The position numbers were made by a program, and so were the translations under genes. Positions 2,308 to 18,607 of a stretch of DNA of 64,000 nucleotides are shown here, piece by piece. The DNA is from Sneathiella aquimaris (GTDB taxonomy: Bacteria > Pseudomonadota > Alphaproteobacteria > Sneathiellales > Sneathiellaceae): positions 3,851,501-3,915,500 of the forward strand of contig NZ_CP112881.1 in NCBI RefSeq assembly GCF_026409565.1, read 5' to 3'. Within the stretch, counting starts at the first letter, position 1. Each line of letters begins with the position of its first letter. Below the pieces are notes generated by a model. It made no database searches, had not been told where the DNA came from, and worked only from the letters and a program-made list of their open reading frames with translations.

Positions 2308-4347
2308 CTATTTTTTTTCAGCGAAAAGCCAATAGTCCGATTGCCCGACAATTCGGTAACCTGCATCCGCAAGCAATCTTTGTTGCCAGTCGGTAACCTG
2401 CGTGGGAATACCGGATGGATCAAGAGGCACCGGTCGATCAACCAGAATACGCGCCGGGGCAGCCTTCAGGACTTCCTCAACAATCGCGGTATGTGTCGAA
2501 GCCGTTCTCGCGTAGGCAAATGGATCGGCGTTTGAAAATGACGGCGGTATGCTCGACAATCGGGACAGAAGAAGCGGGGTTCCGCTCAACCATTTGATCT
2601 GCTCAGACGTGACCGCCTTCCGCAATTCGTCGGCTTTTTGTCCGACAAAACGACATAATGGTTCTGATGCCGCAACGCCATCCAGACAAACCTCTTCTTG
2701 TTTATACGTCCAATGGTGTTTGGATTTTTTTACGAAACGACTTGTTTGCTCCAGCATGGAAGGGGCAATCGTCACAAGAATAAGCGCAATTATTCCAAAA
2801 CGCGCCGCTGCAGACCGTGAGACCAGCGCCGGAAGCACCAGTAACAGATAGAGAAGAATAGGAACCCACAAATTCTGCGCGTCAAATCGGTTCACCACAT
2901 AGGGTAGGAACGCGACAATCAAGCCGATCAGGGTCAGGCTTTGCATGTCGAAACGGGTATAGGTTCTTTTCTCGCGGATATGAATAATATGTCCGACGAA
3001 CAAATAAAACACATGCCCGGCAATGACGAAGAAAGGCAAATACCAGGAAAATTTCTTGCCGCCATATCCTTCGGCGAACAAGCCCATTAAATCCCCAAGA
3101 CCGGTGATATCGCTGTCACCCGACCCACTGCCGGAAACCAATAACAGATAGACACATCCCAAAAAGAACGCTGCAAAGAGAACACCTGCCGAAAGTGTGA
3201 CCAAAAGACCGCGTTGAAGGGTGCGGACAAATAAAGCGAAACCAAGACCCAGTGTCAGGACCAGTCCGGTTTCCAGATTATAGCTAACGGCGAAGGCAGA
3301 CAGAACCGCCGCCGCCCCCCACCAAAAAAACAAGGGCCGCCCCGCAAGAGCCGGCGCAAAAATCAATCCAATGAGCAAGAAAAGGAACCGGATCGGGGAT
3401 TGGTTCGGCGCTTCAATCGAAGTGCCTGAGGCGGCCATTAACGGCGCCAGAATAACCAGAATAATCAGGAAGGCGATCATCGCCAAAGGTATATTCGACC
3501 GTCCAAATCGCTGAACCAGGATCCCGAAAACAAGAGCCGCGAAGACCACGTGAATAATCTGCAAAACTGTAACAGTACCAGCAAAACTGCCAAATTCCGG
3601 GTTTGCTGTCGCCCACTCAATCAGTCGGTTCAGATAGATACCATATTCCGGCAAAGAGGCCTGAAAAGCATCTCCAAAGGTCGCCGCCAGAAGACCGTGA
3701 CCAATAACACCGGTCCAGTGATGATCCAGTCCCCACAGGGTCTGATCCGCCACAGCAAAATAGGCGTGAAAGGGCAACACAAAGAAATATCCGAAGACCC
3801 CCAGCGTCACCAGACTGATGATGGCAATTCCTTTGACACTATCGGTGCTGCGCAGCAATCCATAAGCAATTGCAAGAGACCCGACGGCCATCAAGAAACT
3901 GCGCTTTTCAAAAATATTGCCCAGAAAATTGAAAAACAGGGGGAGTGCGAAAAACAGCACCAGGCCAGTTGCCACCGTCATTAACAACAAAGGATGGCGG
4001 CCTCGAAAGGACTGAAAATAAGGAAAACTGAGTTTTCTGCGGGTCAATCCAAGCCAGAGAGACAGGACAAACAGAGAAACCGTAAAAAGCAGATAAACAG
4101 TGCGCTGAAAAGCTGTGTTATCAAAGCCGTATAACGAAGAATGCTCTGGCGCATATTGAGGCGGAGTGGCGGAAAACAATGTTCCCAGTCCCCCTAACAG
4201 GCTACAGGTCACCAAGGCGGCAAAAATTAAATAGATGCGCCGTTCGTCAACAAGCTGGGCAAGGCGAAGGGCCGTATAAAAAACGGGCTGGACAACAATC
4301 AGATAGAAATTTGACGTTCTGTAATCCCGAAGGAATGAGGGTGTCAT
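2308..4347 (-). CDS. large polytopic membrane protein, possible GT-C type glycosyltransferase
   Basis: 679 residues with about 14-16 hydrophobic segments spread over residues 20-550, then a soluble C-terminal region of roughly 130 residues ending in ...YWLFAEKK. This layout resembles GT-C fold glycosyltransferases, which use lipid-linked sugars at the membrane, but I could not identify a diagnostic DE or DxD motif in the first large loop, so the assignment is tentative. It is the last gene of a minus-strand unit after an epimerase, a GmhA-like isomerase and a GT2 glycosyltransferase. The GT2 partner is of the kind that often makes polyprenyl-phosphate sugars for such membrane enzymes. Role inferred from context: transfer or export of a surface glycan. 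Confidence 0.65.
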   Translation of the reverse strand: MTPSFLRDYRTSNFYLIVVQPVFYTALRLAQLVDERRIYLIFAALVTCSLLGGLGTLFSATPPQYAPEHSSLYGFDNTAFQRTVYLLFTVSLFVLSLWLGLTRRKLSFPYFQSFRGRHPLLLMTVATGLVLFFALPLFFNFLGNIFEKRSFLMAVGSLAIAYGLLRSTDSVKGIAIISLVTLGVFGYFFVLPFHAYFAVADQTLWGLDHHWTGVIGHGLLAATFGDAFQASLPEYGIYLNRLIEWATANPEFGSFAGTVTVLQIIHVVFAALVFGILVQRFGRSNIPLAMIAFLIILVILAPLMAASGTSIEAPNQSPIRFLFLLIGLIFAPALAGRPLFFWWGAAAVLSAFAVSYNLETGLVLTLGLGFALFVRTLQRGLLVTLSAGVLFAAFFLGCVYLLLVSGSGSGDSDITGLGDLMGLFAEGYGGKKFSWYLPFFVIAGHVFYLFVGHIIHIREKRTYTRFDMQSLTLIGLIVAFLPYVVNRFDAQNLWVPILLYLLLVLPALVSRSAAARFGIIALILVTIAPSMLEQTSRFVKKSKHHWTYKQEEVCLDGVAASEPLCRFVGQKADELRKAVTSEQIKWLSGTPLLLSRLSSIPPSFSNADPFAYARTASTHTAIVEEVLKAAPARILVDRPVPLDPSGIPTQVTDWQQRLLADAGYRIVGQSDYWLFAEKK

Positions 4348-4370: not shown

Positions 4371-5111
4371 TTATCGTCCGAAGTGAATTTTCACACGGTT
4401 AAGCGGCTTCTTCTCGGGCCGCCCCGGCTTCAAATTCAATTCAACAACCAGCATCATGAACACTTTGATCACTTCCAGCATATTGCGCAAGGTCACGGTC
4501 GCACGGGTTGGCTCATCTGCCTGCAGATACATCGGGACTTCGGCAAACTCGAACCCCTTCGTCAAAAGCTTAACGTTCATTTCTGAAATGATGGAAAACC
4601 GGTTTGACATCAAGTCGAGGGCCTTGACCTTTTCCGTTGGCCAGATGCCCGGGCCGTTCAGATACCCGACGGAGGTCCCAAAGAAGATGTTATGCATCAT
4701 CTGGTAAATCATCGAGATAACCTGACGGCCAATAGGGCGGGCTTCCTTATTCAGGGGAACCGTCAGAATGATCTCGGCCTCATCTTTAAAATGCAGCATA
4801 AGGCTGAGCGACTCCGTACTGATGTCGTTATCCCCCGGCACAACAATAAACTGCGGATTAATTGCCTTGTGAATCCCATCCACAATCGAGCGACCCAAAC
4901 CTTTGTTTTCAGGATGGTACACAGGACGAATTCTGCTGTCTTCCTGTGCCAGCTTCTCCATGATCTCTTTTGAATTATCTTCACTGCCGTCATCGATCGG
5001 AATGATTTCGTAGCCCACCAGATCATAGGTGGCCGCAACCGAACGAATGGTCTCAACGGTCAGTCGAATGGCCTCGCCTTCGTTAAAAGCTGGTACAATG
5101 AAGCTGATCAT
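4371..5111 (-). CDS. family 2 glycosyltransferase, polyprenyl-phosphate sugar synthase-like
   Basis: GT-A fold glycosyltransferase of 246 residues. The nucleotide-sugar site is visible as IDDGSEDN (Asp40/Asp41) and GDNDIS near residue 93, the DxD-like metal site. The start MISFIVPAFNEGE is the typical GT2 first strand. There are no clear C-terminal membrane segments, as in soluble dolichol-phosphate-mannose-synthase-like enzymes, which charge an undecaprenyl- or dolichyl-phosphate carrier. It lies 32 bases after the SIS gene and 23 bases before the membrane protein gene, and it may feed that membrane protein. The sugar donor cannot be told from sequence. Confidence 0.85.
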   Translation of the reverse strand: MISFIVPAFNEGEAIRLTVETIRSVAATYDLVGYEIIPIDDGSEDNSKEIMEKLAQEDSRIRPVYHPENKGLGRSIVDGIHKAINPQFIVVPGDNDISTESLSLMLHFKDEAEIILTVPLNKEARPIGRQVISMIYQMMHNIFFGTSVGYLNGPGIWPTEKVKALDLMSNRFSIISEMNVKLLTKGFEFAEVPMYLQADEPTRATVTLRNMLEVIKVFMMLVVELNLKPGRPEKKPLNRVKIHFGR

Positions 5112-5143: not shown

Positions 5144-5716
5144 TTAAGCGTTAACAGACGCTGCTTTGTCAGCGAGCCACTGCATCGCATAATGCATAAC
5201 CACCAACTGCGTGTCTTCCGATATCTGCATATCATCAATCGCAAAATGCACGGAATGGGCGGCTCGCTCTTTAGCCGCGCCCCCATCATAACCCAGTATG
5301 GCAAAGGTTTCGATGCCATGATCATTCGCATAATCGATCGCCCGCAGGATATTCGCCGAATTCCCGCTGCCCGATAAAACAAGCAGCACGTCGCCCGGAC
5401 GGGCATAAACCGACAGCTGTTTTGCGAAAATTTCGTCATACCCTTCATCATTGGCAAGGCAGGTCAAAATTGACGTATTGGCGGGTAGCGCATGGGCTCT
5501 CATGCCCTTGCCTGTTTTGCGGTCAATGCCATAGATCATGTCATTAGCAATATGAACCGCATTCCCGGCGCTGCCGCCATTTCCACACAAAAAGAACTGC
5601 TTTCCGTCCTTCCAGGCATTGAGAAGGGTTTCGCACAGGGCCTCGATGGCCGCTTCATCCGCACTGGCCAATGTTTTGTTCAGGCGTTCGCTATAATCCA
5701 GAAAGGAAAGTTTCAT
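5144..5716 (-). CDS. SIS-domain sugar isomerase, GmhA-like
   Basis: 190 residues forming a single SIS domain, the length of GmhA (sedoheptulose-7-phosphate isomerase), which makes D-glycero-D-manno-heptose 7-phosphate. The phosphosugar-binding motifs are CGNGGSAGNA (residues 44-53) and LSGSGNSANI (114-123). QLVVMHYAMQWLAD near the C-terminus matches the helix that carries the catalytic residues in GmhA. The gene sits between the epimerase and the GT2 gene in the same unit. A HldE-like kinase/nucleotidyltransferase lies about 11 kb away in the same locus, which supports a heptose-type precursor pathway. No GmhB-type phosphatase is seen in the window. It could be an isomerase for another ketose phosphate. 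Confidence 0.85.
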   Translation of the reverse strand: MKLSFLDYSERLNKTLASADEAAIEALCETLLNAWKDGKQFFLCGNGGSAGNAVHIANDMIYGIDRKTGKGMRAHALPANTSILTCLANDEGYDEIFAKQLSVYARPGDVLLVLSGSGNSANILRAIDYANDHGIETFAILGYDGGAAKERAAHSVHFAIDDMQISEDTQLVVMHYAMQWLADKAASVNA

Positions 5717-5740: not shown

Positions 5741-6682
5741 TTAGGCGCTTTGGTTCATATTTTCCATCCAACGCAGATTATACCAGCGATCCTCATCCAT
5801 CAGGTCGCGGCGTTGGTAGGCAGCAATTACTTCTGTTATGGCATCATCAACTGATTTTTCCGGTTTAAACCCGGCCGCCAGAATGCGGTCTGAATTCACC
5901 CGGTAAGAGCGTGGGTCGTTAGACGGTGTTACTTCGATTTCACACGGAATCTTTTCAGCAATCCGTTCTGCAATTTCAATAATTTTCAGATTTTCAAAAC
6001 CGGCATTATACACGCCCGTCACCTGCGGATTATCGAGCAGGAACATATACAGACGGGCAATATCATCAATGTGGATATTGGGCCGTACCTGTTCACCACC
6101 AAAAACGGTAATCTTGCCGTTTTTTATGGCCTGCATGGTCAGCATATTGACCGACACATCCAGACGCATGCGCGGGGAAACACCACAAACGGTCGCCGGG
6201 CGCACAATCTGGACGCACATCTGATCGGCATAGCTGAGCATCACCCGCTCTGCCACCATTTTGGTTTTGTTATATTCAGAGATCGGAAGCAGCTCCAGAT
6301 CCTCGGTAACCTGCTCCTCTTCTTTTACGCCGTAAACGCTACCAGAAGACGCATAAATAAAGCGTTTGATCCCGGCGCGTGCGGCGTTATCTGCCAGCTG
6401 CATTGTGGCAAGCGCACTGATTTCCCAAGTGAGTTTCGGATCAAGATCGCCGCAAGGATCATTGGCAACAGACGCCAAATGAATAATCGCATCAATTCCG
6501 TCCAGCAGCGCCACATCAAAGGACCGGACATCGCCTTGAACGACCGTGAGATTTTCATGCGCTGGCAGGAATTGGCCGAACCATTGAATGTCATAAGCCA
6601 GCACTGTATGGCCCGCTGCCAGCAATTTCGGCACCAGTACAGATCCCTTGTAGCCGCATGCTCCCGTGACGAGTAATCGCAT
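5741..6682 (-). CDS. NAD-dependent nucleotide-sugar epimerase/dehydratase
   Basis: Extended short-chain dehydrogenase of 313 residues. The N-terminal nucleotide-binding motif is TGACGYKGS (residues 6-14). The catalytic triad is visible as SSGSVYG (112-118) and YNKTK (137-141), and the substrate segment RPATVCGVSPRMR follows. This is the first gene of the minus-strand unit that continues with the GmhA-like, GT2 and membrane protein genes. It is transcribed away from the plus-strand SDR gene. Likely role: epimerisation or reduction of a nucleotide-linked sugar for the glycan. The exact sugar is unknown, and it is not clearly HldD-like. Confidence 0.87.
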   Translation of the reverse strand: MRLLVTGACGYKGSVLVPKLLAAGHTVLAYDIQWFGQFLPAHENLTVVQGDVRSFDVALLDGIDAIIHLASVANDPCGDLDPKLTWEISALATMQLADNAARAGIKRFIYASSGSVYGVKEEEQVTEDLELLPISEYNKTKMVAERVMLSYADQMCVQIVRPATVCGVSPRMRLDVSVNMLTMQAIKNGKITVFGGEQVRPNIHIDDIARLYMFLLDNPQVTGVYNAGFENLKIIEIAERIAEKIPCEIEVTPSNDPRSYRVNSDRILAAGFKPEKSVDDAITEVIAAYQRRDLMDEDRWYNLRWMENMNQSA

Positions 6683-6882: not shown

Positions 6883-7734
6883 GTGAGTTCTTCAAAAACC
6901 GTTTTTATCGCCGCAATTTCAAGTGATATTGGCCTGAAACTCGCCGATCTTTATTTGCAGGCCGGGTATAAGGTAATCGGTACATACCGGCAATCCACCC
7001 AGTTGGACAGCCTGAAGAAACAGGACCGGGTTACTTTGGTGCATTGCGACTTGAACCGGGATCAGGATATCGAACAGATTGGCGCCCTGATGCAATCAAA
7101 AGGCCTGATTTGGGACGAATTCATTTCGGCCGTTGGTTTGTTGAGCCCGATCGGGAAATTCACCGAAGTCTCCGCGCAGGAATGGACCCAGTCCATAACC
7201 GTCAATTCATTGCAACAATTGGCCCTCCTTCACGCAATTACCCCGTATAAAAGGGCAGAGACATCCGGAAAGGTGGCGTTTCTTGTGGGCGGAGCGATAA
7301 ACCGGGCGTTTCCTAATTATTCGGCCTATTCTCTAGGCAAGGTGATGCTGGTTAAATTCTGTGAATTGATTAGCGATGAAAATCCTCAATTACATTGTGT
7401 TGCCATCGGAACAGGCTGGGTCGCCAGCAAAATTCACCGGCAAACCCTCGACGCCGGGGCACAGGCAGGGAACAATTTCGAGACAACAAAAGACTTTGTC
7501 ACCTCCGGGGAACAGGGAACGAAAATCGAAGACATTTACGCCCTGATCCAATGGTGTTTCGATCGCCCCCAAACAGCAGGGCGTAACTTCTCTGTGGTTC
7601 ATGATGACTGGCGCGAAGGAGGGGAAGCCCTCAGCAATGCTCTTTGCGATGATCAGGACATGTTCCGATTGCGTCGTCACGGCAATCAGCATAAAACGGT
7701 AGAAAGCAGCACAAAAGCGAAAACCAATTCATGA
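6883..7734 (+). CDS. SDR family NAD(P)-dependent oxidoreductase
   Basis: Short-chain dehydrogenase-like protein of 283 residues from a GTG start. I prefer this start because the Rossmann first strand (KTVFIAAISSDIG) begins just after it and AGAGGAAAGG lies 8 bases upstream. An in-frame TTG at 6835 would add 16 residues with no domain content. The glycine-rich loop is degenerate: AISSDIG instead of TGxxxGxG. The catalytic YxxxK is kept as YSLGK. Its stop overlaps the start of the TPP enzyme gene (ATGA), so the two are translationally coupled. Likely role: reducing a keto-sugar, or reducing the product of the TPP enzyme. The substrate is inferred only from context. Confidence 0.8.
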   Translation: MSSSKTVFIAAISSDIGLKLADLYLQAGYKVIGTYRQSTQLDSLKKQDRVTLVHCDLNRDQDIEQIGALMQSKGLIWDEFISAVGLLSPIGKFTEVSAQEWTQSITVNSLQQLALLHAITPYKRAETSGKVAFLVGGAINRAFPNYSAYSLGKVMLVKFCELISDENPQLHCVAIGTGWVASKIHRQTLDAGAQAGNNFETTKDFVTSGEQGTKIEDIYALIQWCFDRPQTAGRNFSVVHDDWREGGEALSNALCDDQDMFRLRRHGNQHKTVESSTKAKTNS

Positions 7735-9509
7735 AACTATCGACTTATGTAATAAATTTTTTGGCTGAAAAAGGCGTCAGCCAGGTTTTTGGGATGTCTG
7801 GCGGAGCCGCTGTCCATCTTTTGGATTCAGTTTCAAAAAATGACAAAATTGATTTTGTCTGTTCGCAGCATGAACAAAGTGCGGCCATCTCTGCCGATGG
7901 CTATGCCCGAACGACAGGCCGGCTGGGTGTTGCAATCACGACAAGTGGTCCGGGGGCGACAAACCTGCTGACCGGAACCTGCTGCTCCTTCTATGACAGT
8001 GTGCCAACATTGATGCTTACCGGTCAGGTCGCCTCGCACCGATTGAAGGGACAGCTGGATATTCGTCAACGCGGATTTCAGGAAACCGATGTAGTCTCGA
8101 TTTTCGGCAGTGTCACGAAATATGCGGTTCAGCTGGAGAAGCCCGAAGACATTCGTTATTGTCTGGAAAAAGCATATTACATGGCTTTTGAAGGTCGCCC
8201 GGGCAGTGTTTTGGTCGACATACCGGATGATTTCCAACGCGCTGATATTGATCCTGACAAATTGCACGGCTTTACGCCAGATCTTACGACCCAAATGGCG
8301 GCCCAAGTGCTTGAGGGGCAGATTTCATCGGTCATGAAGGCGTTCTTTGGGGCGAAAAGGCCCGTAGTTGTTCTGGGTGGTGGTCTGAAAACCCCGGATT
8401 GCGGATTTGATTTACCGTCTTTGGTCACCGCATTGGGGGCACCGGTTGTCACCAGTTGGGCTGCTGTTGACCTGTTGCCACATGATCATCCACTGAAAAT
8501 GGGCAGTTTTGGTGTCTATGCGCCGCGGCTTGGAAACTATGTTGTTCAAAATGCCGACTTTTTGCTCTGCCTTGGCACGCGCCTTTCACAAAATCTGACC
8601 GGCGGTATTTTACCTTCCTTTGCCCGAGAAGCCGAGATCGCCATGATCGATATCAGTGCGGGTGAAATGGAAAAATTTGATGGCTTTGGGATTAATATAG
8701 CGCACCGGGTTCAGGCCCGCTTGTCAGACGCCCTGCCGCATATACAGGCACGTGCCGAGAAGAGCGGCCCCTGCAAGACACCAGACTGGCAAGCGGTCTT
8801 GGAAAAATGGCAATCCCGGTTTGGTCCGGAAATTTATGATCCAGACGACAAAGATGGCTGCCTGAACGCTTATTCCTTTATTGAAAAGCTGTCTGGTTAT
8901 GTGCCGGCTGAAGAAACTATTTTTGCCGATACGGGCGGAAATCTGACCTGGACCTGCAACGCTTTTCAGTTCAAGCCCGGCCAGCGCCTGCATTCCGCGT
9001 GGAATAACACCCCCATGGGATATTCGTTGCCGGCGGCGATTGGCGCCGCAGCCGCAGAGCCTGACAAACCGGTCACTTGCCTGATCGGTGACGGTGGGTT
9101 GATGATCTGTCTTGCCGAACTTGCGACCGTTGTGAAGCACAGGATGAAAATCAGAACCTTTCTGTTTAACAATCACGGGCATGGTATCCAGAAACAGACC
9201 CTGGAAACCTGGCTTGGCTCCAACTATGTCGGCGTTCATGAGCCGTCGGGCCTTGCCTTTACAGATTTTGCCGCCGTTGCAAACAGCATGGGACTGAAAA
9301 CCGTCACCTTGAACAATAAAGATCGGCTGGAAGCGGATCTTGAAGAAATCTTCGCTTATGAGGGACCCGTTTTTGTGAATGTGGAAATCAATCCAGACCA
9401 AAGACTTTTCCCCGTCCTCAAATTTGGCGCGGCGCTGGAAGATCAATTACCCGCATTGGATCAATCCGACATCGAAGAACACATGGTCATCAAGCCTTTT
9501 TCAATGTAG
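7731..9509 (+). CDS. thiamine-pyrophosphate enzyme, acetolactate synthase-like
   Basis: 592 residues with the three-domain layout of the acetolactate synthase/pyruvate oxidase family. The cofactor-activating glutamate is in SQHEQSAA (Glu48). The TPP/magnesium motif runs from GDGGLM (453) to NN (480-481). These enzymes decarboxylate a 2-oxo acid and transfer the acyl unit to an acceptor. There is no regulatory small-subunit gene nearby and the surroundings are glycan genes, so it is unlikely to be the housekeeping branched-chain amino-acid enzyme. By analogy with YerE, which adds a two-carbon branch to a keto-sugar in yersiniose synthesis, it may make a branched-chain sugar. That role is inference. 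Confidence 0.85.
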   Translation: MKLSTYVINFLAEKGVSQVFGMSGGAAVHLLDSVSKNDKIDFVCSQHEQSAAISADGYARTTGRLGVAITTSGPGATNLLTGTCCSFYDSVPTLMLTGQVASHRLKGQLDIRQRGFQETDVVSIFGSVTKYAVQLEKPEDIRYCLEKAYYMAFEGRPGSVLVDIPDDFQRADIDPDKLHGFTPDLTTQMAAQVLEGQISSVMKAFFGAKRPVVVLGGGLKTPDCGFDLPSLVTALGAPVVTSWAAVDLLPHDHPLKMGSFGVYAPRLGNYVVQNADFLLCLGTRLSQNLTGGILPSFAREAEIAMIDISAGEMEKFDGFGINIAHRVQARLSDALPHIQARAEKSGPCKTPDWQAVLEKWQSRFGPEIYDPDDKDGCLNAYSFIEKLSGYVPAEETIFADTGGNLTWTCNAFQFKPGQRLHSAWNNTPMGYSLPAAIGAAAAEPDKPVTCLIGDGGLMICLAELATVVKHRMKIRTFLFNNHGHGIQKQTLETWLGSNYVGVHEPSGLAFTDFAAVANSMGLKTVTLNNKDRLEADLEEIFAYEGPVFVNVEINPDQRLFPVLKFGAALEDQLPALDQSDIEEHMVIKPFSM

Positions 9510-9557
9510 AGAACAGGCCTAGGGTCAACACAGACGTCCAGAAAACAGGTAAAACCT

Positions 9558-10418
9558 ATGAATATCGCTGAAAACAGTCTTTTTGAAGCTCTTCAAAGCA
9601 CCCCGTCCTTACATGCACGGGACACAGCTTTCTATCAATTGCTGGACAGTTGCTGTCTGGAGTTCATCAAAAATTCCGATTTCCAATCAGAAGAGCCCAC
9701 GCCTGTTCCCTTTGGGCCTTTTGGAGATCTGGTGATGCCGTTCCAGAAAATGGGCGCCATTACTTCGCTGGATCTGTTTGGATTGGATGAGTTAATCCTT
9801 TTCAGCTTTTACCTTGCCAATAAGGGCCGCATTAAGAAGGCTGTCGATATTGGGGCCAATCTGGGGCTGCATTCCATTTTGATGGCGAAATTGGGCATTT
9901 CAGTCACCAGTTACGAGCCAGACGATATCCATTTCACCTGGTTCAATGACCGGCTTGCCCTTAACGAGGTTCTGGACAACGTAACACCGGTAAAAGCGGC
10001 GGTTTCCTCTGAAAACGGTACGGCTGAATTTGTCCGGGTCGAAGGCAATACAACAGGCAGTCACCTCGCCGGTGCCAAAAGCAACCCGTACGGCGATCTT
10101 ACAAAATACATGGTCGACATCAAGGCCGCTGAAGACGTGTTCAAAGACGTGGATTTCGCCAAAATCGATGCAGAAGGCCACGAAACTGTTATTTTGCAGG
10201 CCATTCCCGCCGCTTATTGGGATACGTTGGAAACCGTTGTGGAAGTGGGAACAGCGGAAAATGCCGAACAGATTTACAGCTATTTCACGGATCTGGGGGT
10301 TAATTTATTCTCCCAGAAAACGGGTTGGCAAAAAGCCGCCAGCCTCGATGATGTTCCCGTTTCCTACAAAGAGGGCAGCCTGTTTATTTCAAAACAGCCC
10401 GCGATGGTTTGGGGATAA
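9558..10418 (+). CDS. FkbM family SAM-dependent methyltransferase
   Basis: 286 residues with a class I methyltransferase fold. The SAM-binding loop is VDIGANLGLHS (about residues 96-106), and the FkbM-type acidic motif KIDAEGHE is at 202-209. FkbM enzymes usually O-methylate a sugar or polyketide hydroxyl. It is the third gene of the plus-strand unit after the SDR and TPP enzyme, 48 bases downstream of the latter. Likely role: methylating the glycan or its precursor. It converges on the minus-strand unit that ends at 10439. A short GC-rich hairpin (AGGGG-CCG-CCCCT) lies in the 20-base gap but has no T-run. Confidence 0.87.
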   Translation: MNIAENSLFEALQSTPSLHARDTAFYQLLDSCCLEFIKNSDFQSEEPTPVPFGPFGDLVMPFQKMGAITSLDLFGLDELILFSFYLANKGRIKKAVDIGANLGLHSILMAKLGISVTSYEPDDIHFTWFNDRLALNEVLDNVTPVKAAVSSENGTAEFVRVEGNTTGSHLAGAKSNPYGDLTKYMVDIKAAEDVFKDVDFAKIDAEGHETVILQAIPAAYWDTLETVVEVGTAENAEQIYSYFTDLGVNLFSQKTGWQKAASLDDVPVSYKEGSLFISKQPAMVWG

Positions 10419-10438
10419 ACCGTAAGAAGGGGCCGCCC

Positions 10439-10954
10439 CTAATCGAACTGACTGCCTTTGCCCAGAAGGCCCTGTTTCAAGGCGGAGAAAAAACGCGCCG
10501 CCGTTTTCAGCTTGCCTGATCGCAAATGCCAGTGATTTCGGCCCTGTTCAACGGCCCCGCCTTGGACAAGCCGCTGCATTCGTAAACGGATCAGGGTTTC
10601 ATCGTTATAAATTGCCCGCAGTTCATCAGCGGCCATCTGCCCGCCGTTCTTGCGGATTTCCAGCAACATCCGGATCCGCAAAGACGATTCCACGGCTTGA
10701 ACAACATTAAGATAGATAAACCACCACATCAGACCCAGGCCAAGGCCCAAAACCACTTCAAAAACATCGGTTGTTTTCAAGACAAACACAAAGACCAGCG
10801 GGACCCCGATCAACGTCAGCAGAAAACTGGTTGCATACCCCCGAAGGCGCCGTCCCGTTATGCGGCTTATCAAAAGATCAACAAGCACACTGACAAAAAG
10901 CGTCGCGAAAAGGGCGATGAAAAAGTCAGTCATTTCAGCCCGTTTCCCGTTCAA
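10439..10954 (-). CDS. small membrane protein with C-terminal winged-helix-like domain (second of a pair)
   Basis: 171 residues, family not recognised. The N-terminal half has about three hydrophobic segments (residues 8-28, 38-60 and 62-85). The C-terminal half is soluble and reads like a winged helix: SLRIRMLLEIRKNGGQM, then ADELRAIYNDETLIRLRMQR, then VQGGAVEQGRNHW. It partly resembles the preceding gene's product in length and layout, so the two may be old paralogues. It overlaps that gene by 20 bases and is the last gene of the glycan unit that starts at 19676. A membrane-bound regulator or a structural partner of the flippase-like protein are both possible. Confidence 0.7.
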   Translation of the reverse strand: MNGKRAEMTDFFIALFATLFVSVLVDLLISRITGRRLRGYATSFLLTLIGVPLVFVFVLKTTDVFEVVLGLGLGLMWWFIYLNVVQAVESSLRIRMLLEIRKNGGQMAADELRAIYNDETLIRLRMQRLVQGGAVEQGRNHWHLRSGKLKTAARFFSALKQGLLGKGSQFD

Positions 10955-11438
10955 TTTTTAGAAATCTTTGATAAAGGCTGATCACGGCCACAATAAATCT
11001 AGACCTGGGGGTTAAGGCCAATTGCTCATTTTTTTTCACGACATCGCCTGTCGCCTGCAAAGCATCAACGCGGGAGCGAAAAAAGGGATGAGCCACAATA
11101 AAAGTATCAAAATCCGCTTTGCTTAATCCCATTGGACCAGCTTTCATCAACGCTTTTACAATCGCCAGTGTCGGCGAGTCATTCACGACCCCGATCAGGA
11201 TCAACGCATACACCACAAAAAAGCTTTCCGTGAACAGGGCCATGATAAAAACCCCGGCGGCAGACAAAGTCATCCCCCCCAGAAAACCGATACCAAGCAA
11301 CAGACAAAGGCATCCGTTCAGACAAATAAAGGCTGACAGATACAACCGCTGGCCCTTTGTCAGGCGCGCAATGCCCAAATGCAGGATCAAACCGGATGCC
11401 AGGGTCGCGCATAGAAGATAAAAGGCCGATTCAAACAT
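10935..11438 (-). CDS. small membrane protein with C-terminal winged-helix-like domain (first of a pair)
   Basis: 167 residues from the ATG that follows AGGGATAAT and directly follows the stop of the flippase-like gene. A longer frame would overlap that gene. There are three or four hydrophobic N-terminal segments (from MFESAFYLLCATLASGLIL to about residue 95). A soluble tail follows with LAIVKALMKAGPMGLSKADF and DALQATGDVVKKNEQLALTP, a plausible recognition helix and wing. No family is recognised. Close coupling to the flippase-like gene and to the similar next gene suggests that the three products work together in glycan assembly or its control. Confidence 0.7.
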   Translation of the reverse strand: MFESAFYLLCATLASGLILHLGIARLTKGQRLYLSAFICLNGCLCLLLGIGFLGGMTLSAAGVFIMALFTESFFVVYALILIGVVNDSPTLAIVKALMKAGPMGLSKADFDTFIVAHPFFRSRVDALQATGDVVKKNEQLALTPRSRFIVAVISLYQRFLKIERETG

Positions 11439-11439
11439 A

Positions 11440-12429
11440 TTATCCCTCGTTCTTTTGCAGTTGTTCTTTTTCTTCGCGAACCGCCTGAACGGCCTCACGA
11501 TGGAGTAGAAAAGGGATAACCCCGAAGACCGAGGTGAATAATGTTAAAGTCCGCATCAATAAAAAGATCGAACTATAGGCCATGGTGGTGGGTTCTTTTT
11601 CCAACATATGAGCAACTTGGCCAAAGGCCGCTTCACCGATCCCCAGTCCCCCCGGAGACAGAGGAATTGCATTGGCAAACAGCCCGGCAACGCTGGAAAC
11701 AACATAGCCGACCGGCGATAATCCGCTGACCCCCATGGCATCGCCCAGCAAATAAAGCGCCTCTAAGATCAGCACATACTGAAAAATTGATAGGGCAATG
11801 CCCTTAATCAAGTCCCCTCTGCTTTTCCCGTAACTTTCGAAACAGTCAACTATTGTATCGAAGATACCCATCAGAATACGCGCAACGGGCCTTGGAAAAA
11901 GGGTAATAATGGCGCGGAAAAAAGACTGAAAGCGCACGGCAATAACCGGGGCGAAAAACCCCACAACAAGACCGGAAACAACGATCACGCCGATCCAGAA
12001 TTGAAACTGGTTTGGAATAAACGCCAAAACAGTGACCGCGATAAACAGCAATCCCGCAAGCCCGGTCAACCGATCCACAAGGCTGCTCATCATGATCTCG
12101 CCAATTTTGTCCTTATGCTGACGATAGGCCAAGCCACCCCGAACAAAATCACCTCCGTAGGCCCCCGGCAGGAACACGTTAAAAAACTGGCCGATAAAGG
12201 TATAATTCAAGGACTGGATAAAAGTGATGCGGACGTGTAAAGAGCCCATCAGCACTTTCCAGCGCAACGCCCCGATAAAAACAGTAGACAGAAGGCAGGC
12301 AAAAGCAACGCCCACCAGAACGGGAGAGGTGGCGGCGTTCTGCAACAAATCAAAGTCAATGAAATCGTAATAGAACAAGGCTGAGATGCAGCCCACCCCG
12401 ATTAATATTTTTATCAGCAAAAAGATCAA
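11440..12429 (-). CDS. lysylphosphatidylglycerol synthase TM-region/flippase-like membrane protein
   Basis: 329 residues of the UPF0104 family (the transmembrane region of MprF), with about eight membrane segments. Family hallmarks visible are FLPGAYGGDFVRGGLAYR near residue 88 and LSPGGLGIGEAAFG near residue 258. Members move or hold lipids or lipid-linked sugars at the inner membrane. The catalytic lysyl-transferase domain of MprF is absent, as in most members found in polysaccharide loci. It lies 21 bases after the E1-beta gene and 1 base before the first winged-helix membrane protein. Likely role: flipping or presenting a lipid-linked glycan intermediate. Confidence 0.85.
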   Translation of the reverse strand: MIFLLIKILIGVGCISALFYYDFIDFDLLQNAATSPVLVGVAFACLLSTVFIGALRWKVLMGSLHVRITFIQSLNYTFIGQFFNVFLPGAYGGDFVRGGLAYRQHKDKIGEIMMSSLVDRLTGLAGLLFIAVTVLAFIPNQFQFWIGVIVVSGLVVGFFAPVIAVRFQSFFRAIITLFPRPVARILMGIFDTIVDCFESYGKSRGDLIKGIALSIFQYVLILEALYLLGDAMGVSGLSPVGYVVSSVAGLFANAIPLSPGGLGIGEAAFGQVAHMLEKEPTTMAYSSIFLLMRTLTLFTSVFGVIPFLLHREAVQAVREEKEQLQKNEG

Positions 12430-12450
12430 AATTGTGTCCTAGCCAAGCCT

Positions 12451-13500
12451 TTAGAAAGGGCCTGTAAACCAGTTACCGGGCACATCATGAAATGGCCCTT
12501 TTTTACTCAGGATAGGTTCGACAGAAACCTCTTTACCGACCATTTTACCCACTTGCGCAGCAATATGTTCGGCCCGAATATGATAGTCTTTGGTAAGGGC
12601 CGGACTGGTTGATTCCGGATAATCAGGCGCCGTCAAACGAGCCGGTGCCGCCTTTAATTCGGACCAGCAGCGTTCCGTTACACGCGCCATGATTTCACCC
12701 GCGATACCATTTGATTGAAAGCCTGTATCCAGCACCAGTAATTTACCGGTCTTCTTGACGGATCTTTCAATCTTTTCCCAATCAATGGGGGAGACGGTGC
12801 GCAAATCAATCAAATCACAGTCAATACCCTGATCTTTGAGCACATCAACAGCATGCAGGGCCTCAATGGTCATGTAGGACACGGATACCACGGTGACCGC
12901 ATCCCCTTTGCGAAGCTGATTGGCTTTGCCCAGCGGAATGGGTTCAACCGTATCCGGTGCATCTGTTTGGGCATTATGCAGCCAGCGATGTTCCAGAAAG
13001 ATAACGGGATTAGGGTCCTGAATGCTGGATAATAATAATCCCTTTGCGTCAGATGCCAGGGCGGGCATCACCACCTTTAAGCCCGGAATATGCGCAAACC
13101 AGGATTGAAGATTTTGCGAGTGAGTGGGCCCCTGTCCCCAGCCCCGACCCAAAATCATGCGGATCGTAATGGGAACAGACCGCTGACCGCCAAACATAAA
13201 ATGCCATTTGGCCGCATTATTCACCAACTGGTCCATGCTCAGAAGCGCAAAATCAAGCCGTTGATGGGTCAAAACCGGTTTAAAACCACCAAGGGCTGCG
13301 CCAATGGCGATACCGGTCATGGCATTTTCGGCGGTCGGCATATCGAAAACACGCTTTTCGCCATATTTTTCCTGCAGGCCAAGAGTGGTCCCAAAAACGC
13401 CTTTTGGATCAGGAACACCCAGACCAAAAACCAGAACACTGGGGTCTGTTTCCAATGCGTGATCTAATCCCGCGTTGATTTCGCTGGCAAATGTTCTCAT
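12451..13500 (-). CDS. 2-oxoacid dehydrogenase E1-like beta subunit (transketolase C-terminal type)
   Basis: 349 residues with the transketolase pyrimidine-binding and C-terminal domains of E1-beta subunits. It opens with MRTFASEINAGLDHALETD and contains RMILGRGWGQGPTHSQ and VLDTGFQSNGIAGEI, with the family's TAENAMTGIAIGAALGG segment near residue 56. It overlaps the E1-alpha gene by four bases, so the heterotetramer subunits are co-translated. No lipoyl acyltransferase (E2) or E3 gene is in the window, so it is probably not part of a classical dehydrogenase complex. In glycan loci such pairs are likely stand-alone carboligases or transketolase-like enzymes acting on sugar precursors; that is inference. 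Confidence 0.87.
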   Translation of the reverse strand: MRTFASEINAGLDHALETDPSVLVFGLGVPDPKGVFGTTLGLQEKYGEKRVFDMPTAENAMTGIAIGAALGGFKPVLTHQRLDFALLSMDQLVNNAAKWHFMFGGQRSVPITIRMILGRGWGQGPTHSQNLQSWFAHIPGLKVVMPALASDAKGLLLSSIQDPNPVIFLEHRWLHNAQTDAPDTVEPIPLGKANQLRKGDAVTVVSVSYMTIEALHAVDVLKDQGIDCDLIDLRTVSPIDWEKIERSVKKTGKLLVLDTGFQSNGIAGEIMARVTERCWSELKAAPARLTAPDYPESTSPALTKDYHIRAEHIAAQVGKMVGKEVSVEPILSKKGPFHDVPGNWFTGPF

Positions 13501-14504
13501 TTCAGAAACACACTTTCTTCCATTGTCGGGGCCAGAATATGCTGCGATGCTTCTTGCAACGGCGGAAACTCTGATGCTTTGGCAAACTCAAATGCCGCCT
13601 CAACTTCCCGCTCGATCTCTGTTTGCAAACTGTCAATCTCGCCTTGGGTCAGAAGGTTGTTTTTTAACGCTTCTTTTTCGAAACTATGGATGGCGTCTCG
13701 GGATTGCCATTCTTTCAGCATCGTTTCGGGCCGGTAGCCCAAATCGTCATCATAGTTGGGGCCGCAATGTTCCCGCCAACGGAAGGTTTCAAATTCCAGA
13801 AAGGCAGGACCATTTCCGGCCCTGACATGGGCTATGGCTTTCGCCATTTTTTCATGAACCTCGATCACATTATGGCCATCACCATTATCCGTATAAACCC
13901 CAAACCCAGCGACTTTTTCGTGGATTTCTACGGTATCGTTCTGACGAACGGACAAGGGCGAATAAACTGAATAGAAATTGTTTTCACAAATGAACAGAAC
14001 CGGAAGTTTCTTTAACGCCGCAAAGCTCAGGGATTCAAAGAACACGCCCGTTTCGACAACCGCATCCCCCAGAAAAACACAGGCAATATCGTCGCCGCCC
14101 TTCATCATCTGGCTATAACCCAGCCCAACGCCAACCGGAACCGTTCCGCCGACAATGGCCGTTGATCCCATAAACCCAACCGTCTCGTCAATCAGGTGCA
14201 TGGAGCCACCTTTACCCCGAGCACAGCCGGTTACGCGTCCGTAAATTTCGGCAATCATTGCATTAAGGTTGCCGCCCTTGGCCAGATAATGCGCATGCGC
14301 CCGGTGACCGCTGACCGCCAGATCCGTATGCCGTAGTAATGTCCCGATTACCGCTGACACCCCTTCCTGTCCGGAAGAAAGATGGGTCGGACATCTCATC
14401 TCCTGCTCTGAATAGCGAGCCGCAATTGTTTCTTCAACACTGCGGATACGCCGCATACCCCGCGACAGATCCTGTGCCAGTTTGGCGCCTATGGAATAAA
14501 CCAA
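13497..14504 (-). CDS. 2-oxoacid dehydrogenase E1-like alpha subunit (TPP-binding)
   Basis: 335 residues of the E1-alpha family. The TPP motif appears as FLGDAVVETGVFFESL...CENN, where GDA replaces the usual GDG. HRAHAHYLAKG and GRVTGCARGKGGSMH match the phosphate-binding and partner-binding segments. It works with the beta subunit encoded four bases inside its 3' end. Its own start lies inside the end of the methyltransferase gene (16-base overlap), so the three genes are coupled. The lack of E2/E3 genes and the company of a sugar nucleotidyltransferase and a HldE-like fusion argue for a role in sugar assembly, perhaps transferring an aldehyde unit. Confidence 0.87.
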   Translation of the reverse strand: MVYSIGAKLAQDLSRGMRRIRSVEETIAARYSEQEMRCPTHLSSGQEGVSAVIGTLLRHTDLAVSGHRAHAHYLAKGGNLNAMIAEIYGRVTGCARGKGGSMHLIDETVGFMGSTAIVGGTVPVGVGLGYSQMMKGGDDIACVFLGDAVVETGVFFESLSFAALKKLPVLFICENNFYSVYSPLSVRQNDTVEIHEKVAGFGVYTDNGDGHNVIEVHEKMAKAIAHVRAGNGPAFLEFETFRWREHCGPNYDDDLGYRPETMLKEWQSRDAIHSFEKEALKNNLLTQGEIDSLQTEIEREVEAAFEFAKASEFPPLQEASQHILAPTMEESVFLK

Positions 14505-15169
14505 AAGTAATCCCCTGTATAACCGATCTCTTTAAAGAAGGCCTTCCATTCATCCACATGCAGGATTGTCTTCGCTGTCAAATTCCATGCCTGCATGCGC
14601 TCATATTCTTCATCTGTTCGATATGCATCAACCGTGATGAAGGACTGGCCTTTCGAGACCCGCTCAATTTCCTGTAATGCTTTCCCGCAGTCCGGTTTTT
14701 CAAGATTGTGAACCGTATTAATGGAAATCACCACATCGAAACTGTTATCGCCAAATGGCAGGTCTCGTGCATCGGCAACCGAAACCTGTTCCCGGACCGT
14801 TTCCATGCTGTTTTCAATTGCATAGTCTGACACATCAACGCCCGCAACCGTGATCCCGGGGATAAGCTCTTTCAGATCGTGCAGCATGAAACCCTTTGCG
14901 CAACCCACGTCCAGAAGGCTTGAGTTTTTTGTTAGTCCGAAATGGGACTGAAAAGTCGGAATGACCGGTTGCCAGAATCTTGGAAAATAGGAAAACCCGC
15001 CATATCCATGACGCCGATCTCCATCAAAGAAGTCTTTGCCAAATTGACGCGCAATGGCCCGGTCGGCTTCTGTTTTCTCATTTCCGCGTTGCGTTAAATC
15101 CCGTTTTGTTTTCGGGTAATTCGCAAGCAGGTCGATTTCTTGTCCCATGTCACTCTCAATCGGCATCAA
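14489..15169 (-). CDS. class I SAM-dependent methyltransferase
   Basis: 226 residues, Methyltransf_11 type. The SAM loop is LLDVGCAKGFMLHDL (about residues 75-89). The acidic second strand is GVDVSDYAIENS, and the post-II loop is DARDLPFGDNSFDVV. It probably methylates a small hydroxyl or amine substrate in the glycan pathway. Its 3' end overlaps the E1-alpha start by 16 bases, and it begins 12 bases after the stop of the upstream epimerase gene, so expression is tightly tied to both. Confidence 0.82.
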   Translation of the reverse strand: MMPIESDMGQEIDLLANYPKTKRDLTQRGNEKTEADRAIARQFGKDFFDGDRRHGYGGFSYFPRFWQPVIPTFQSHFGLTKNSSLLDVGCAKGFMLHDLKELIPGITVAGVDVSDYAIENSMETVREQVSVADARDLPFGDNSFDVVISINTVHNLEKPDCGKALQEIERVSKGQSFITVDAYRTDEEYERMQAWNLTAKTILHVDEWKAFFKEIGYTGDYFWFIP

Positions 15170-15181
15170 TATAAGTATAAA

Positions 15182-16174
15182 TTACGGTTTATGGATATAG
15201 GATTGTGGTTGCCCTTTCAGGGTCTCCAGATTTGTTTTCACCCAATCAATGGTCTCGTCAATTCCCTGATCAAGTGAGATTTGATCTGACCATCCAAGGG
15301 TCTCGCGCAGTTTGTTGTCGTTCAAACTGTAGGTTTGATCTTTTCCCTGACGCTCGCCCACAACCTCAACCAGATCAGAGGCCTCGATCCCCAGACGTTC
15401 ACTGATTTTTTCCACCAGATTGCGAATACTGATCAGCTCTGGCGTGGAAATATGATAGCACTCCCCGATTTTACCTTCGAGCGCGATCTTAACGGTCGCA
15501 GCGGAGACATCTTCAATATGAATGAAAGAACGTTCAGAATGTCCCCCGCCGTGCAACTGCAATTTCTGTCCGGTCAAACCATACAGAATTGTTCGCGGAA
15601 TAATCCGGTAAAGTTGCTGACCGGGACCAAACACATTGGCCGCGCGGGTAAAGACCACAGGAAAGTTGTACGCCTTAAAATAGCTCATCAGGCTCATGTC
15701 GCCAGCGGCGCGGGAAACCGCATATGGTGTGCTGGGATTAAAAGGGTGGTGCTCATCCACAAACCCGGATGTATTGCCATATACTTCCGGTGTCGAGATA
15801 TGGACATAGCGTTCCAAAAAGGGAAGTTTCCGCAATTCTTCATGTAGTAAAACAGTCGACAGGGCATTGGTACGGAACCAGTCACCCGGATTATCCCAAC
15901 TCTCACCTACCATACTTTGGGACGCAAAATTCACGACAAACGGAATTTCTTCCTGTTTGATCAGATCAATGATCTCGGGCAGGTTTTCATTCAGGTCCAA
16001 TTGGTGAAACGAAAATTTATCCTGATTTTCTTCCCATCGATAGGGCAGAAAAGCCGAATGCGGTTCGGCCGAACGGCTTCCCCCATAAACCTGAAATCCG
16101 GCGCGCAGCAGATGGGCGCAAAAGCTGGCCCCAGAAAAGGAATTACTCCCAAGAACAAAAAACTTTTTAGACAT
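15182..16174 (-). CDS. NAD-dependent epimerase/dehydratase, GDP-mannose dehydratase-like with altered active site
   Basis: Extended SDR of 330 residues. The nucleotide loop is GSNSFSGASF (9-18). The segment FASQSMVGESW and the C-terminal ETLGWSDQISLDQGI resemble GDP-mannose/dTDP-glucose 4,6-dehydratases. Two active-site positions differ from that family. The TDE motif reads STPEVYG (Pro where dehydratases have Asp), and the YxxxK motif reads YAVSR (Tyr151, Arg155; DNA codon CGC). Such changes make ordinary 4,6-dehydration doubtful. The enzyme may instead oxidise, epimerise or decarboxylate a nucleotide sugar. It sits between the nucleotidyltransferase gene and the methyltransferase gene. Confidence 0.82.
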   Translation of the reverse strand: MSKKFFVLGSNSFSGASFCAHLLRAGFQVYGGSRSAEPHSAFLPYRWEENQDKFSFHQLDLNENLPEIIDLIKQEEIPFVVNFASQSMVGESWDNPGDWFRTNALSTVLLHEELRKLPFLERYVHISTPEVYGNTSGFVDEHHPFNPSTPYAVSRAAGDMSLMSYFKAYNFPVVFTRAANVFGPGQQLYRIIPRTILYGLTGQKLQLHGGGHSERSFIHIEDVSAATVKIALEGKIGECYHISTPELISIRNLVEKISERLGIEASDLVEVVGERQGKDQTYSLNDNKLRETLGWSDQISLDQGIDETIDWVKTNLETLKGQPQSYIHKP

Positions 16175-16269: not shown

Positions 16270-17109
16270 TTAACCCAGCATCAAACGACCGACAACCTCT
16301 TCACAAAGGTCTGTCAGGGCAAGCGTCTCGCGGAATTTCTCCGCCATCAGGCGGCGCTCGGGCGTCGGTACCCAGTAACTGTCAACCTGCGCCAGAAGTG
16401 GCGCGGCCATCGCCACACTTTCTATTTCCAGCTGGGCATTTCCAATGGCCGCGACCGTCCCAATATCCCGATGGTAAACCCCGTTATGATAGCTATTCAT
16501 TCGGCCGACAAATTCGGGCAAGATCTGTGTACTGAAATCCGTAATCTGAGGATCCGCATCCAACAACTTTCTTATCACCGAAAAATCCATCATATAGACA
16601 GCACCATTTGCCAGATTGCCAATATACTCTTGCGGCTTCTCCGTAAATGCGACAACCGTACCCGCCTCGTCCAAGGACACAATTCCGCAACTTTGAGGCT
16701 GATCTGTCTCAAACGTCATCATGGTCATTGCGCAATCTGGCGTGCGCTGTTCAAAGGCGCGGATAAACGCAGTCACATCAAACAGTGTCAGGTTATCGGC
16801 ATGTGCCAATAAAAGCGTATCGGAAAACTCATTTCGGAACCGGTTTAATGTACCCGCTGTGCCCAGAAGTTCGGGCTCATCAAGAAACGTCACCTGTTCC
16901 CGATAAGGGCTGTTTTCCACATAAGCGCGCACCAAGGGCGACAAGTAATGCAAATTGATAAAAACCCGATCAAAGCCCCCCTGCTTCAGCATTTCCAGCC
17001 AAATCCCCAACAACGGCCGCCCCTGCACAGGCATCAAACATTTTGGCAAGATATCGGTCAGGGGTCTCAGTCGGGTGCCAAGGCCTGCGGCAAGCAATAA
17101 TGCGTCCAT
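16270..17109 (-). CDS. sugar-phosphate nucleotidyltransferase, HddC/mannose-1-phosphate guanylyltransferase-like
   Basis: 279 residues from the ATG preceded by TAGGA at good spacing. The longer frame would overlap the upstream gene. The N-terminal signature LAAGLGTRLRPLTD is the nucleotide-binding loop, with LPKCLMPVQGRPLL following. The acidic LLAHADNLT corresponds to the metal-binding Asp region, and FTEKP is also conserved. The family activates sugar-1-phosphates as GDP-, UDP- or dTDP-sugars. With the GmhA-like isomerase and the HldE-like kinase of this locus, a GDP-heptose type product is plausible. The base and sugar cannot be decided by eye. Confidence 0.85.
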   Translation of the reverse strand: MDALLLAAGLGTRLRPLTDILPKCLMPVQGRPLLGIWLEMLKQGGFDRVFINLHYLSPLVRAYVENSPYREQVTFLDEPELLGTAGTLNRFRNEFSDTLLLAHADNLTLFDVTAFIRAFEQRTPDCAMTMMTFETDQPQSCGIVSLDEAGTVVAFTEKPQEYIGNLANGAVYMMDFSVIRKLLDADPQITDFSTQILPEFVGRMNSYHNGVYHRDIGTVAAIGNAQLEIESVAMAAPLLAQVDSYWVPTPERRLMAEKFRETLALTDLCEEVVGRLMLG

Positions 17110-17116
17110 CGAATTC

Positions 17117-18607
17117 CTACCAAATACCAAGTTCGTGCCGGATCGTATCCACGCTTAAGGGTCGATTACCAACTGTGGCCACCTGACAACCGGACGCCAC
17201 CGACCCGATATAGGCAGCTTCCCAGATGCTGGCACCCGCGGCGAGCGCCATAGACGCCGTCACGAGCATCGCATCCCCAGCCCCGGCAGGGTCTTTCGGC
17301 GCATCGCAAAAAGCCGGCAATCGATCTGTCATCCATTCGCTTTTGTCTGGATGCAACGTTTGTATCAGGGTGCCTTCAGCGCCCATGGTGAGCAAGATAT
17401 GCGATGGATTACATTTATTGGCGAGCTTCTCAGCAGCACCAACCAAGCCGACATCATGGTCCTGAATGGCCAACCGTGCTTCAATCTCAGTGGGTTTCAA
17501 CAGCAACATATCGTGAAAGCGGGAAATATCCCCGATTTGAGAGGACGACTGGCTATCCGCCACCATCAGAAGATTTTTCTCTTTTCCAAGCGCGATCATT
17601 CTGTCGACGAGCGACTGGGGCAGCACACCGTAATTGAAATCTGAAAAAACCAGCAGATCCAGAGAATCCACGCGCTCCTGAAAGGTTTCAAAAATCTCAT
17701 CCTGCAAAGTCTGATCTATCGCGTGCTGTTTAAGCTTGGACACCCGCAACAGGGTCTTCCCGGACGAACGATACCGTTGTTTCAGCGTCGTCGGACGGCT
17801 GCCATCCCGACCGATAAAGGCCTGCACACCATATTCCTTGAACTTCTCAAGACTGTCTTTCGCTTCCCGGTCATCGCCGCAAACGGTGACATAGGTCGTA
17901 TTTGCCCCTAAGCCATGGGCATGACTGGCGACAATCCCGGCGCCCCCGATAAATTTCTGTTCCAGAACGGGCGTGACAACAACGGTCGGATCTTCCCGTG
18001 ACAACCCAAGAACATCACAGGTGATATATTCATCGACAATCAGGTCTCCGACAACAAGTACGTTAAGGTCACAGAATTTATTCAAAATGGCCGAGAAATT
18101 TTCTGTGCTGATCTGATGACGTTGTAAAAAATTGGGCGAGGCTTTCAAATTGTGGAGCGACTTCTTCGGATCACTCTCTGCCTGAATCAAATCAATCGAG
18201 GAAAAAATCGCGTCACCGGAACTAAACAGCAGTTTCCCACCATATTGAGACAATATGTCAGATTCCGGATTGGGAACGTTCTGATGCTCTTTTCCCTTGA
18301 TGACCAGATCCGGACGCAGCGCATCAATGGTCGCCGTCAGATCCTCTTCCAAAAGAAAGGCATAGTCGACGAAACTGATTGCAACAATATTTTCAAGTCT
18401 TAACTGGGCCGGGACAAGGACACCGGGGTGGCGGTCATCGTTCACCACAACAACCAGGTAATCACAGCAATCCGCTGCGAATTTAAGCAGTCTCAAGTGA
18501 CCGGGATGCACCACATTAAAATTACCGCTGACCATACCGATCTTGAAATCAGGGCCGTTTTCGCTCCGCAGCGCTTTAATATGGGCTGTATGCTCCTTAG
18601 GTGTCAT
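17117..18607 (-). CDS. HldE-like fusion with reversed domains: cytidylyltransferase-like then PfkB kinase
   Basis: 496 residues. Residues about 20-150 are a nucleotidyltransferase of the cytidylyltransferase superfamily with GNFNVVHPGH (28-37), where the usual GxFDxxHxGH has Asn for Asp. Residues about 170-496 are a PfkB/ribokinase-type kinase with FIGGAGIVASHAHGLG and the anion-hole/base motif DPAGAGDAM (439-447). Classical HldE has the kinase first and the adenylyltransferase second, so the order is swapped here. Likely role: phosphorylate a sugar-7-phosphate at C1 and activate it with a nucleotide. It starts five bases before the end of the alcohol dehydrogenase gene is reached and is followed closely by the HddC-like gene. 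Confidence 0.85.
   Translation of the reverse strand: MTPKEHTAHIKALRSENGPDFKIGMVSGNFNVVHPGHLRLLKFAADCCDYLVVVVNDDRHPGVLVPAQLRLENIVAISFVDYAFLLEEDLTATIDALRPDLVIKGKEHQNVPNPESDILSQYGGKLLFSSGDAIFSSIDLIQAESDPKKSLHNLKASPNFLQRHQISTENFSAILNKFCDLNVLVVGDLIVDEYITCDVLGLSREDPTVVVTPVLEQKFIGGAGIVASHAHGLGANTTYVTVCGDDREAKDSLEKFKEYGVQAFIGRDGSRPTTLKQRYRSSGKTLLRVSKLKQHAIDQTLQDEIFETFQERVDSLDLLVFSDFNYGVLPQSLVDRMIALGKEKNLLMVADSQSSSQIGDISRFHDMLLLKPTEIEARLAIQDHDVGLVGAAEKLANKCNPSHILLTMGAEGTLIQTLHPDKSEWMTDRLPAFCDAPKDPAGAGDAMLVTASMALAAGASIWEAAYIGSVASGCQVATVGNRPLSVDTIRHELGIW

Follow-up and report, generated by a model that had tools for sequence, protein, structure and literature searches.

Why should a bacterial glycan locus carry two different kinds of thiamine diphosphate (ThDP) enzyme, one resembling acetolactate synthase (ALS) and coupled to a short-chain dehydrogenase/reductase (SDR), the other a pair of E1-alpha and E1-beta subunits of the type known from pyruvate dehydrogenase (PDH)? 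The question is raised by a stretch of 64,000 nucleotides from the marine bacterium Sneathiella aquimaris (assembly GCF_026409565.1, contig NZ_CP112881.1, positions 3,851,501 to 3,915,500), hereafter called the window, in which an initial annotation had drawn attention to both enzymes within positions 6883-14504. We lean, by a narrow balance, towards the view that the genes at 2308-19676 form one dedicated cassette, which would make and attach a single unusual C-branched, probably heptose-derived nucleotide sugar by means of two carboligations.

One conserved gene block around both thiamine enzymes

The SDR gene (6883-7734, plus strand) and the ALS-like open reading frame (7731-9509, plus strand) overlap by 4 nt, and so do the genes for E1-beta (12451-13500, minus strand) and E1-alpha (13497-14504, minus strand). 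All four reading frames are intact, and neither an E2 nor an E3 gene is present in the locus. Reading frames, domains, overlaps and a census of E2 genes in the genome (see below) thus confirm the initial description of an ALS-like enzyme coupled to an SDR and of an E1 pair devoid of E2 and E3. Its view of the two as independent, separate modules had to be abandoned, as both are enclosed in a module of 17 genes (window positions 2308-19676), of which 6883-14504 is only the middle part. The gene order of this module is the same in six further Sneathiella genomes, being complete in five and interrupted by a contig end in the sixth. The same 7 of 26 genomes of the family contain orthologues of both E1-beta and the ALS-like protein, and either one alone is found in none of the 26; this is far beyond chance, though the genomes are related. 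The window sequence flanking the module did not match the flanks fetched from other Sneathiella genomes, although these flanks are short at several loci. With its collinear genes and differing flanks, the block thus has the character of a discrete accessory cassette. A foreign island recognizable by base composition was rejected, because the GC content is flat (approximately 0.48-0.54). There is also no tRNA gene near the module, and the argument for mobility is therefore limited to the differing flanks, short as they are at some loci. The 17 genes are as follows:

2308..4347, minus: TM679, polytopic membrane protein with about 12 hydrophobic segments and no family match, first gene of the module; possibly a GT-C-like lipid-linked glycosyltransferase
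4371..5111, minus: soluble glycosyltransferase of family 2 (GT2), weakly similar to polyprenyl-phosphate sugar transferases
5144..5716, minus: SIS isomerase, similar to GmhA (phosphoheptose isomerase) below the curated cut-off
5741..6682, minus: epim1, extended SDR, candidate nucleoside diphosphate (NDP)-heptose C4-dehydrogenase; best solved relative 6vo6/6vo8
6883..7734, plus: reductase of the SDR type with translational coupling to the YerE-like gene; may act as ketoreductase on the new branch
7731..9509, plus: YerE-like (ALS-like) ThDP carboligase of 592 aa; Pfam TPP_enzyme_N/M/C
9558..10418, plus: FkbM-family methyltransferase
10439..10954, minus: small membrane protein, no family match
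10935..11441, minus: small membrane protein, no family match
11440..12429, minus: flippase-like membrane protein (TIGR00374 / LPG_synthase_TM)
12451..13500, minus: E1-beta of the E2-less subfamily; Transket_pyr + Transketolase_C, C-terminal WFTGPF
13497..14504, minus: E1-alpha of the E2-less subfamily; E1_dh
14489..15169, minus: class I S-adenosylmethionine (SAM) methyltransferase, overlapping E1-alpha; found at 12 of the 31 E1 loci of the class (see below)
15182..16174, minus: epim2, extended SDR related to dTDP-glucose 4,6-dehydratase
16270..17130, minus: sugar-1-phosphate nucleotidylyltransferase
17117..18607, minus: HldE-like fusion in which the domain order is reversed, the nucleotidyltransferase preceding the PfkB sugar kinase
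18612..19676, minus: zinc-dependent alcohol dehydrogenase (ADH), last gene of the module

Subfamily placement of the two enzymes

The genome contains only two E2 genes, one at 2181283 adjoining the E1-alpha/beta genes of PDH and one at 591871 adjoining a large E1 at 589057. Each thus belongs to another E1, and therefore no E2 is left for the E1 pair of the module, which is not a pyruvate dehydrogenase. The pair shares the fold of PDH and acetoin dehydrogenase E1 and retains the cofactor and catalytic residues (D147, N175/N176 and H246 in E1-alpha; E58 and H127 in E1-beta). It differs from these enzymes in its lack of an E2 partner, in other pocket residues, in a C-terminal extension and in the existence of alpha-beta fusions among its relatives. 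Near-invariant in the E2-less subfamily only are R81, W121-G122-Q123 and R172 of E1-beta and P39, Y73, R187, E245 and G248-P249 of E1-alpha. The extension of E1-beta ends in F-x-G-P-[F/Y] at the extreme C-terminus, an ending found in 39 of 41 standalone E1-beta proteins and in none of 15 of the PDH/acetoin type; the two tail-less standalone proteins are L101, which is truncated by the end of its contig, and L149 from Solidesulfovibrio. The tail is likewise absent from five more E2-linked E1-beta proteins of five genera, and also from two Sphingobium E1-beta proteins without a visible E2. In a tree of E1-beta sequences from which the tail had been excluded, the window protein falls into a clade of 25 sequences (support 99/98), apart from the clade of E2-linked PDH/acetoin enzymes (100/99). 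Outside the class, 10 of the 17 loci fetched from other classes of the phylum encode a natural alpha-beta fusion as a single open frame, whose ending is identical or varies slightly (L166, L168, L171, L173, L176 and L178-L182; frames of 650-724 aa, FxGPF-type tail), and an HldE-like gene was seen at nine of these 17 loci. In solved PDH structures, the C-terminus of the beta subunit is located at the E2-binding site, and a tail at this position would therefore fit an enzyme that has dispensed with E2.

Two observations concern E1 pairs in other settings. Tailed pairs are also encoded on Streptomyces plasmids (L150, L152), in clusters without sugar genes. Other Sneathiella genomes (L043-L047) additionally possess an E2-linked acetoin-type E1 pair, whose E1-beta is approximately 42% identical and which is missing from the window genome.

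The second enzyme scores 374.7 bits against the acetolactate synthase profile TIGR00118, whose curated cut-off is 538.35. Its two best solved relatives are 8rph and, in second place, 5ahk, which is annotated as acetolactate synthase II and which we tentatively take to be PpYerE. The former is JanthE, a YerE-like enzyme whose reaction joins a 2-oxo acid and a ketone (PMC12188165). Maximum-likelihood analysis places the window protein with JanthE, 5ahk and proteins of RfbF/RfbG/RfbH clusters in a clade with 100/99 support, and the ilvB product of the same genome, encoded away from the module at 1323005 and about 29% identical, falls outside. Because ilvB lies elsewhere and the tree places the protein among YerE-like enzymes, its sequence identifies it as a member of this sugar-branching clade and not as the housekeeping acetolactate synthase. 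Neither of the two outcomes that the initial annotation had named as refuting its reading, an E2/E3 pairing specifically with this E1 and a housekeeping identity of the ALS-like protein, was thus observed. Within the clade, the copies adjoining an E1 pair cluster together with moderate support (87/95).

With the YerE-like carboligases YerE, ErwE, JanthE and PpYerE, the module enzyme has in common its fold, its clade and its location in a sugar locus of the lipopolysaccharide (LPS) type, and a partner reductase is likely. The characterized YerE and ErwE use CDP-3,6-dideoxy-4-keto hexoses, whereas the Sneathiella module lacks RfbF/G/H and the other CDP-3,6-dideoxyhexose genes and instead contains heptose-type activation genes. 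YerE-like genes unaccompanied by E1 belong to classical CDP-3,6-dideoxyhexose clusters and mostly lack heptose-type neighbours: the latter occur at none of the seven such loci compared (Fisher p = 0.0003, uncorrected for relatedness), and four were confirmed to have CDP-glucose cytidylyltransferase or dehydratase genes. This comparison excludes one YerE-like locus (G146), which encodes SIS, epim1, epim2 and HldE-like proteins and no E1 in the part seen.

Genomic neighbourhood and a proposed heptose-type pathway

To which genes, then, is the E1 pair linked elsewhere? We fetched 31 E1 loci, nearly all class-wide (Alphaproteobacteria) matches at E<=1e-80. A SIS, HldE-like or HddA-like gene lies within about 10 kb at 24 of them, and several of the other seven are cut by contig ends; a sugar kinase gene is present at 22, and an E2 gene was found near none of the 31. 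Two arrangements recur. Type A, to which the window belongs, combines E1 with SIS, HldE-like, epim1, epim2 and methyltransferase genes. In type B, the E1 pair is accompanied by RfbH-like, epimerase, HddA-like and HddC-like genes, often together with a B12 radical SAM gene (examples are L131-L137 and L151, several of which encode a radical SAM protein that binds B12), which suggests a pathway for a 3-deoxy, branched and perhaps C-methylated heptose. A type-B-like cluster on plasmid pDMC1 of Solidesulfovibrio magneticus (L149, with the tail-less E1 pair mentioned above) encodes an L-2-hydroxyglutarate oxidase, a possible means of recycling what a 2-oxoglutarate-dependent C4-dehydrogenase produces.

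The gene-neighbourhood search proposed in the initial annotation recovered the same set in another family (G345), where twelve of the module's genes recur in a changed order, namely FkbM, ALS, SDR, E1-beta, E1-alpha, nucleotidyltransferase, HldE-like, ADH, methyltransferase, epim2, SIS and epim1. Most of this set is also held by two more genomes (G328 and G389), in the second of which the E1 and ALS genes are on different contigs. These three genomes provide the three best ALS matches outside the genus in a class-wide search.

Within the module, the HldE-like protein appears to be a dedicated copy, since the housekeeping hldE, which scores above the curated cut-off, is encoded separately at genome position 21942. 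The only solved match of epim1 at E<=1e-25, and its best, is 6vo6; the S-Y-K triad is kept (SSGSVYG, YNKTK) and the SPRMRLD motif is shared (PRxRLD). Orthologues of epim1 in four other Sneathiella genomes share 93-94% identity with the window protein, and that in a fifth shares 88%. In epim2 (STPEVYG), the catalytic Asp of dehydratases is replaced by Pro, and the Pro-Glu is kept in closer relatives; an assignment as 4,6-dehydratase was not adopted for this reason. Structure predictions made from three sequences were too poor to be used (pLDDT 42 and 51). A known pathway with a similar inventory is the GDP-heptose modification of Campylobacter jejuni (GmhA, HddA, HddC, Cj1427), in which Cj1427 oxidizes GDP-heptose at C4 (PMC10680097). 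It shares with the module an isomerase, a kinase, a nucleotidyltransferase and a C4-dehydrogenase-like enzyme, whereas it has no ThDP enzymes, and the module has the reversed HldE-like fusion in place of HddA and an altered SIS active site.

From these placements and associations we propose the following order of steps. The SIS isomerase, the HldE-like kinase and the nucleotidyltransferase would provide a nucleotide-activated sugar, probably a heptose, which epim1 would oxidize to a 4-keto sugar in a Cj1427-like manner. The E1 pair, free of E2 and E3, would decarboxylate a 2-oxo acid, probably pyruvate, and transfer the two-carbon (acetyl) unit to the keto group. By the same chemistry, the YerE-like enzyme would form a second C-C bond, at another keto group, possibly one made by ADH or epim2, or with another donor. 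The coupled SDR would then reduce the new branch and the methyltransferases would complete the sugar, which might pass via a lipid carrier into a surface glycan through the action of GT2, the flippase-like protein and the membrane protein with 12 segments. Branching of keto sugars is established for both enzyme types, for the YerE-like ones in LPS and for alphaKADH2 enzymes in antibiotics, and a 4-keto sugar is the type of substrate used (PMC12247030, PMC4753412). For the alphaKADH2 pairs AviB1/AviB2, Pau11/Pau12 and KbDH-alpha/beta, an E1-alpha/beta carboligase that transfers two carbons in a sugar pathway has been proposed or shown, as we propose for the module pair; these pairs act in Gram-positive secondary metabolism, and the likeness is drawn from their described roles. 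The branched or higher-carbon sugar suggested at the outset is thus the best reading of the locus, with its product and substrates inferred from the gene content.

We also advance a more far-reaching proposal, which we consider possible though less likely than not. Two thiamine carboligases of different superfamilies, the YerE-like enzyme and the E2-free tailed E1 pair, might act successively on one nucleotide-linked keto-heptose and yield a doubly C-branched sugar of at least 11 carbons, and the uncharacterized FxGP[FY]-tailed, E2-independent E1 family might be the standard brancher of heptose-type surface glycans in Pseudomonadota.

Competing explanations and implications

Several findings weigh against the proposed pathway. 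The SIS protein scores 115.7 bits against the GmhA profile, well short of the curated cut-off of 209.45, and its active site reads HxxND, as against HFxxEL in the two phosphoheptose isomerases aligned with it. With the score below the cut-off and Asp in place of Glu, its substrate may therefore be one other than sedoheptulose 7-phosphate, and the heptose identity is probable only. The HldE-like protein of the module is likewise below its curated cut-off, and the equation of 6vo6 with the GDP-heptose C4-dehydrogenase Cj1427 is our own assumption. As the tailed Streptomyces pairs belong to non-sugar clusters, the tail would be a mark of E2-independence rather than of sugar work and would also accompany other natural-product chemistry. 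Finally, the YerE-like gene is absent from most E1 loci, and the two enzymes are thus not obligate partners.

How well do other explanations account for the same genes? One possibility, which we regard as unlikely, is that the E1 pair acts early, as a two-subunit transketolase-like enzyme producing an unusual ketose phosphate (of higher carbon number or from an unusual donor), which the SIS protein would convert to an aldose phosphate for the HldE-like kinase, leaving the YerE-like enzyme as the sole brancher. The E1 pair does accompany mainly SIS and sugar-kinase genes, the change in the SIS active site may reflect an unusual substrate, and transketolase and DXS are relatives of the E1 family. 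The reviewed carboligating alpha-KADH2 enzymes, however, act on ketones (PMC12247030), a pyruvate-derived 1-deoxy-ketose could not be isomerized to an aldose, and the repeated occurrence of the E1 pair beside genes resembling C4-dehydrogenase and RfbH indicates keto-sugar chemistry.

We give a similarly small chance to two separate sugars, with the E1 pair making a branched heptose, the YerE-like enzyme contributing to another sugar, and both pathways packed together since both sugars enter one glycan. This would agree with the absence of the E1 pair from most YerE-like loci, the converse of the absence noted above, and with the SDR-ALS-FkbM operon, which is oriented opposite to the E1 operon. 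It is at odds with the single soluble glycosyltransferase, single separate sugar-1-phosphate nucleotidylyltransferase gene and single kinase of the module, with its lack of CDP-dideoxyhexose genes, and with the ALS/SDR pair remaining with the E1 set despite the changed gene order in G345 and G328.

Less probable still is that the E1 pair does not attack a sugar at all and supplies a small-molecule donor or acyl group, such as an acyloin or a carrier-bound acyl; the Streptomyces plasmid pairs have genes for acyl carriers, condensation domains or efflux nearby, yet the neighbours in Pseudomonadota are overwhelmingly sugar genes, and the module encodes neither an acyl carrier protein nor an acyltransferase. 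That ordinary metabolism is at work, with a spare pyruvate/acetoin dehydrogenase E1 and a spare acetolactate synthase parked in a glycan locus, is largely refuted and very improbable: the best general profiles do give those names, all below curated cut-offs, and against it stand the absence of a free E2, the subfamily residues and tail missing from E2-linked E1s, the grouping of the ALS-like protein with YerE-like enzymes and not with ilvB, and the strict conservation of the module.

Is a cassette for a branched heptose, our preferred explanation, a new pathway, as was suggested initially? In part, since sugar-branching precedents exist for each kind of enzyme, while the open literature searched, of which coverage was partial, yielded no account of E1 pairs at heptose loci (members may figure in an in silico survey of branching enzymes cited in PMC12247030). 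Under the same partial coverage, neither the presence of both ThDP enzymes in one conserved cassette or their link to heptose-type activation, nor the occurrence of a tailed E1 subfamily without E2 at glycan loci across the Pseudomonadota, was found described.

If the proposed function is true, it explains the 'pyruvate dehydrogenase E1' genes that many bacteria possess without a dehydrogenase complex as sugar-branching carboligases, recognizable by a simple C-terminal motif, and a common misannotation would be corrected. It would also add a class of C-C bond-forming biocatalysts, which may accept keto-heptoses, and the 17-gene cassette would represent a compact gene set for reconstituting such a pathway. 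It would further suggest that environmental bacteria bear branched or higher-carbon sugars not yet described.

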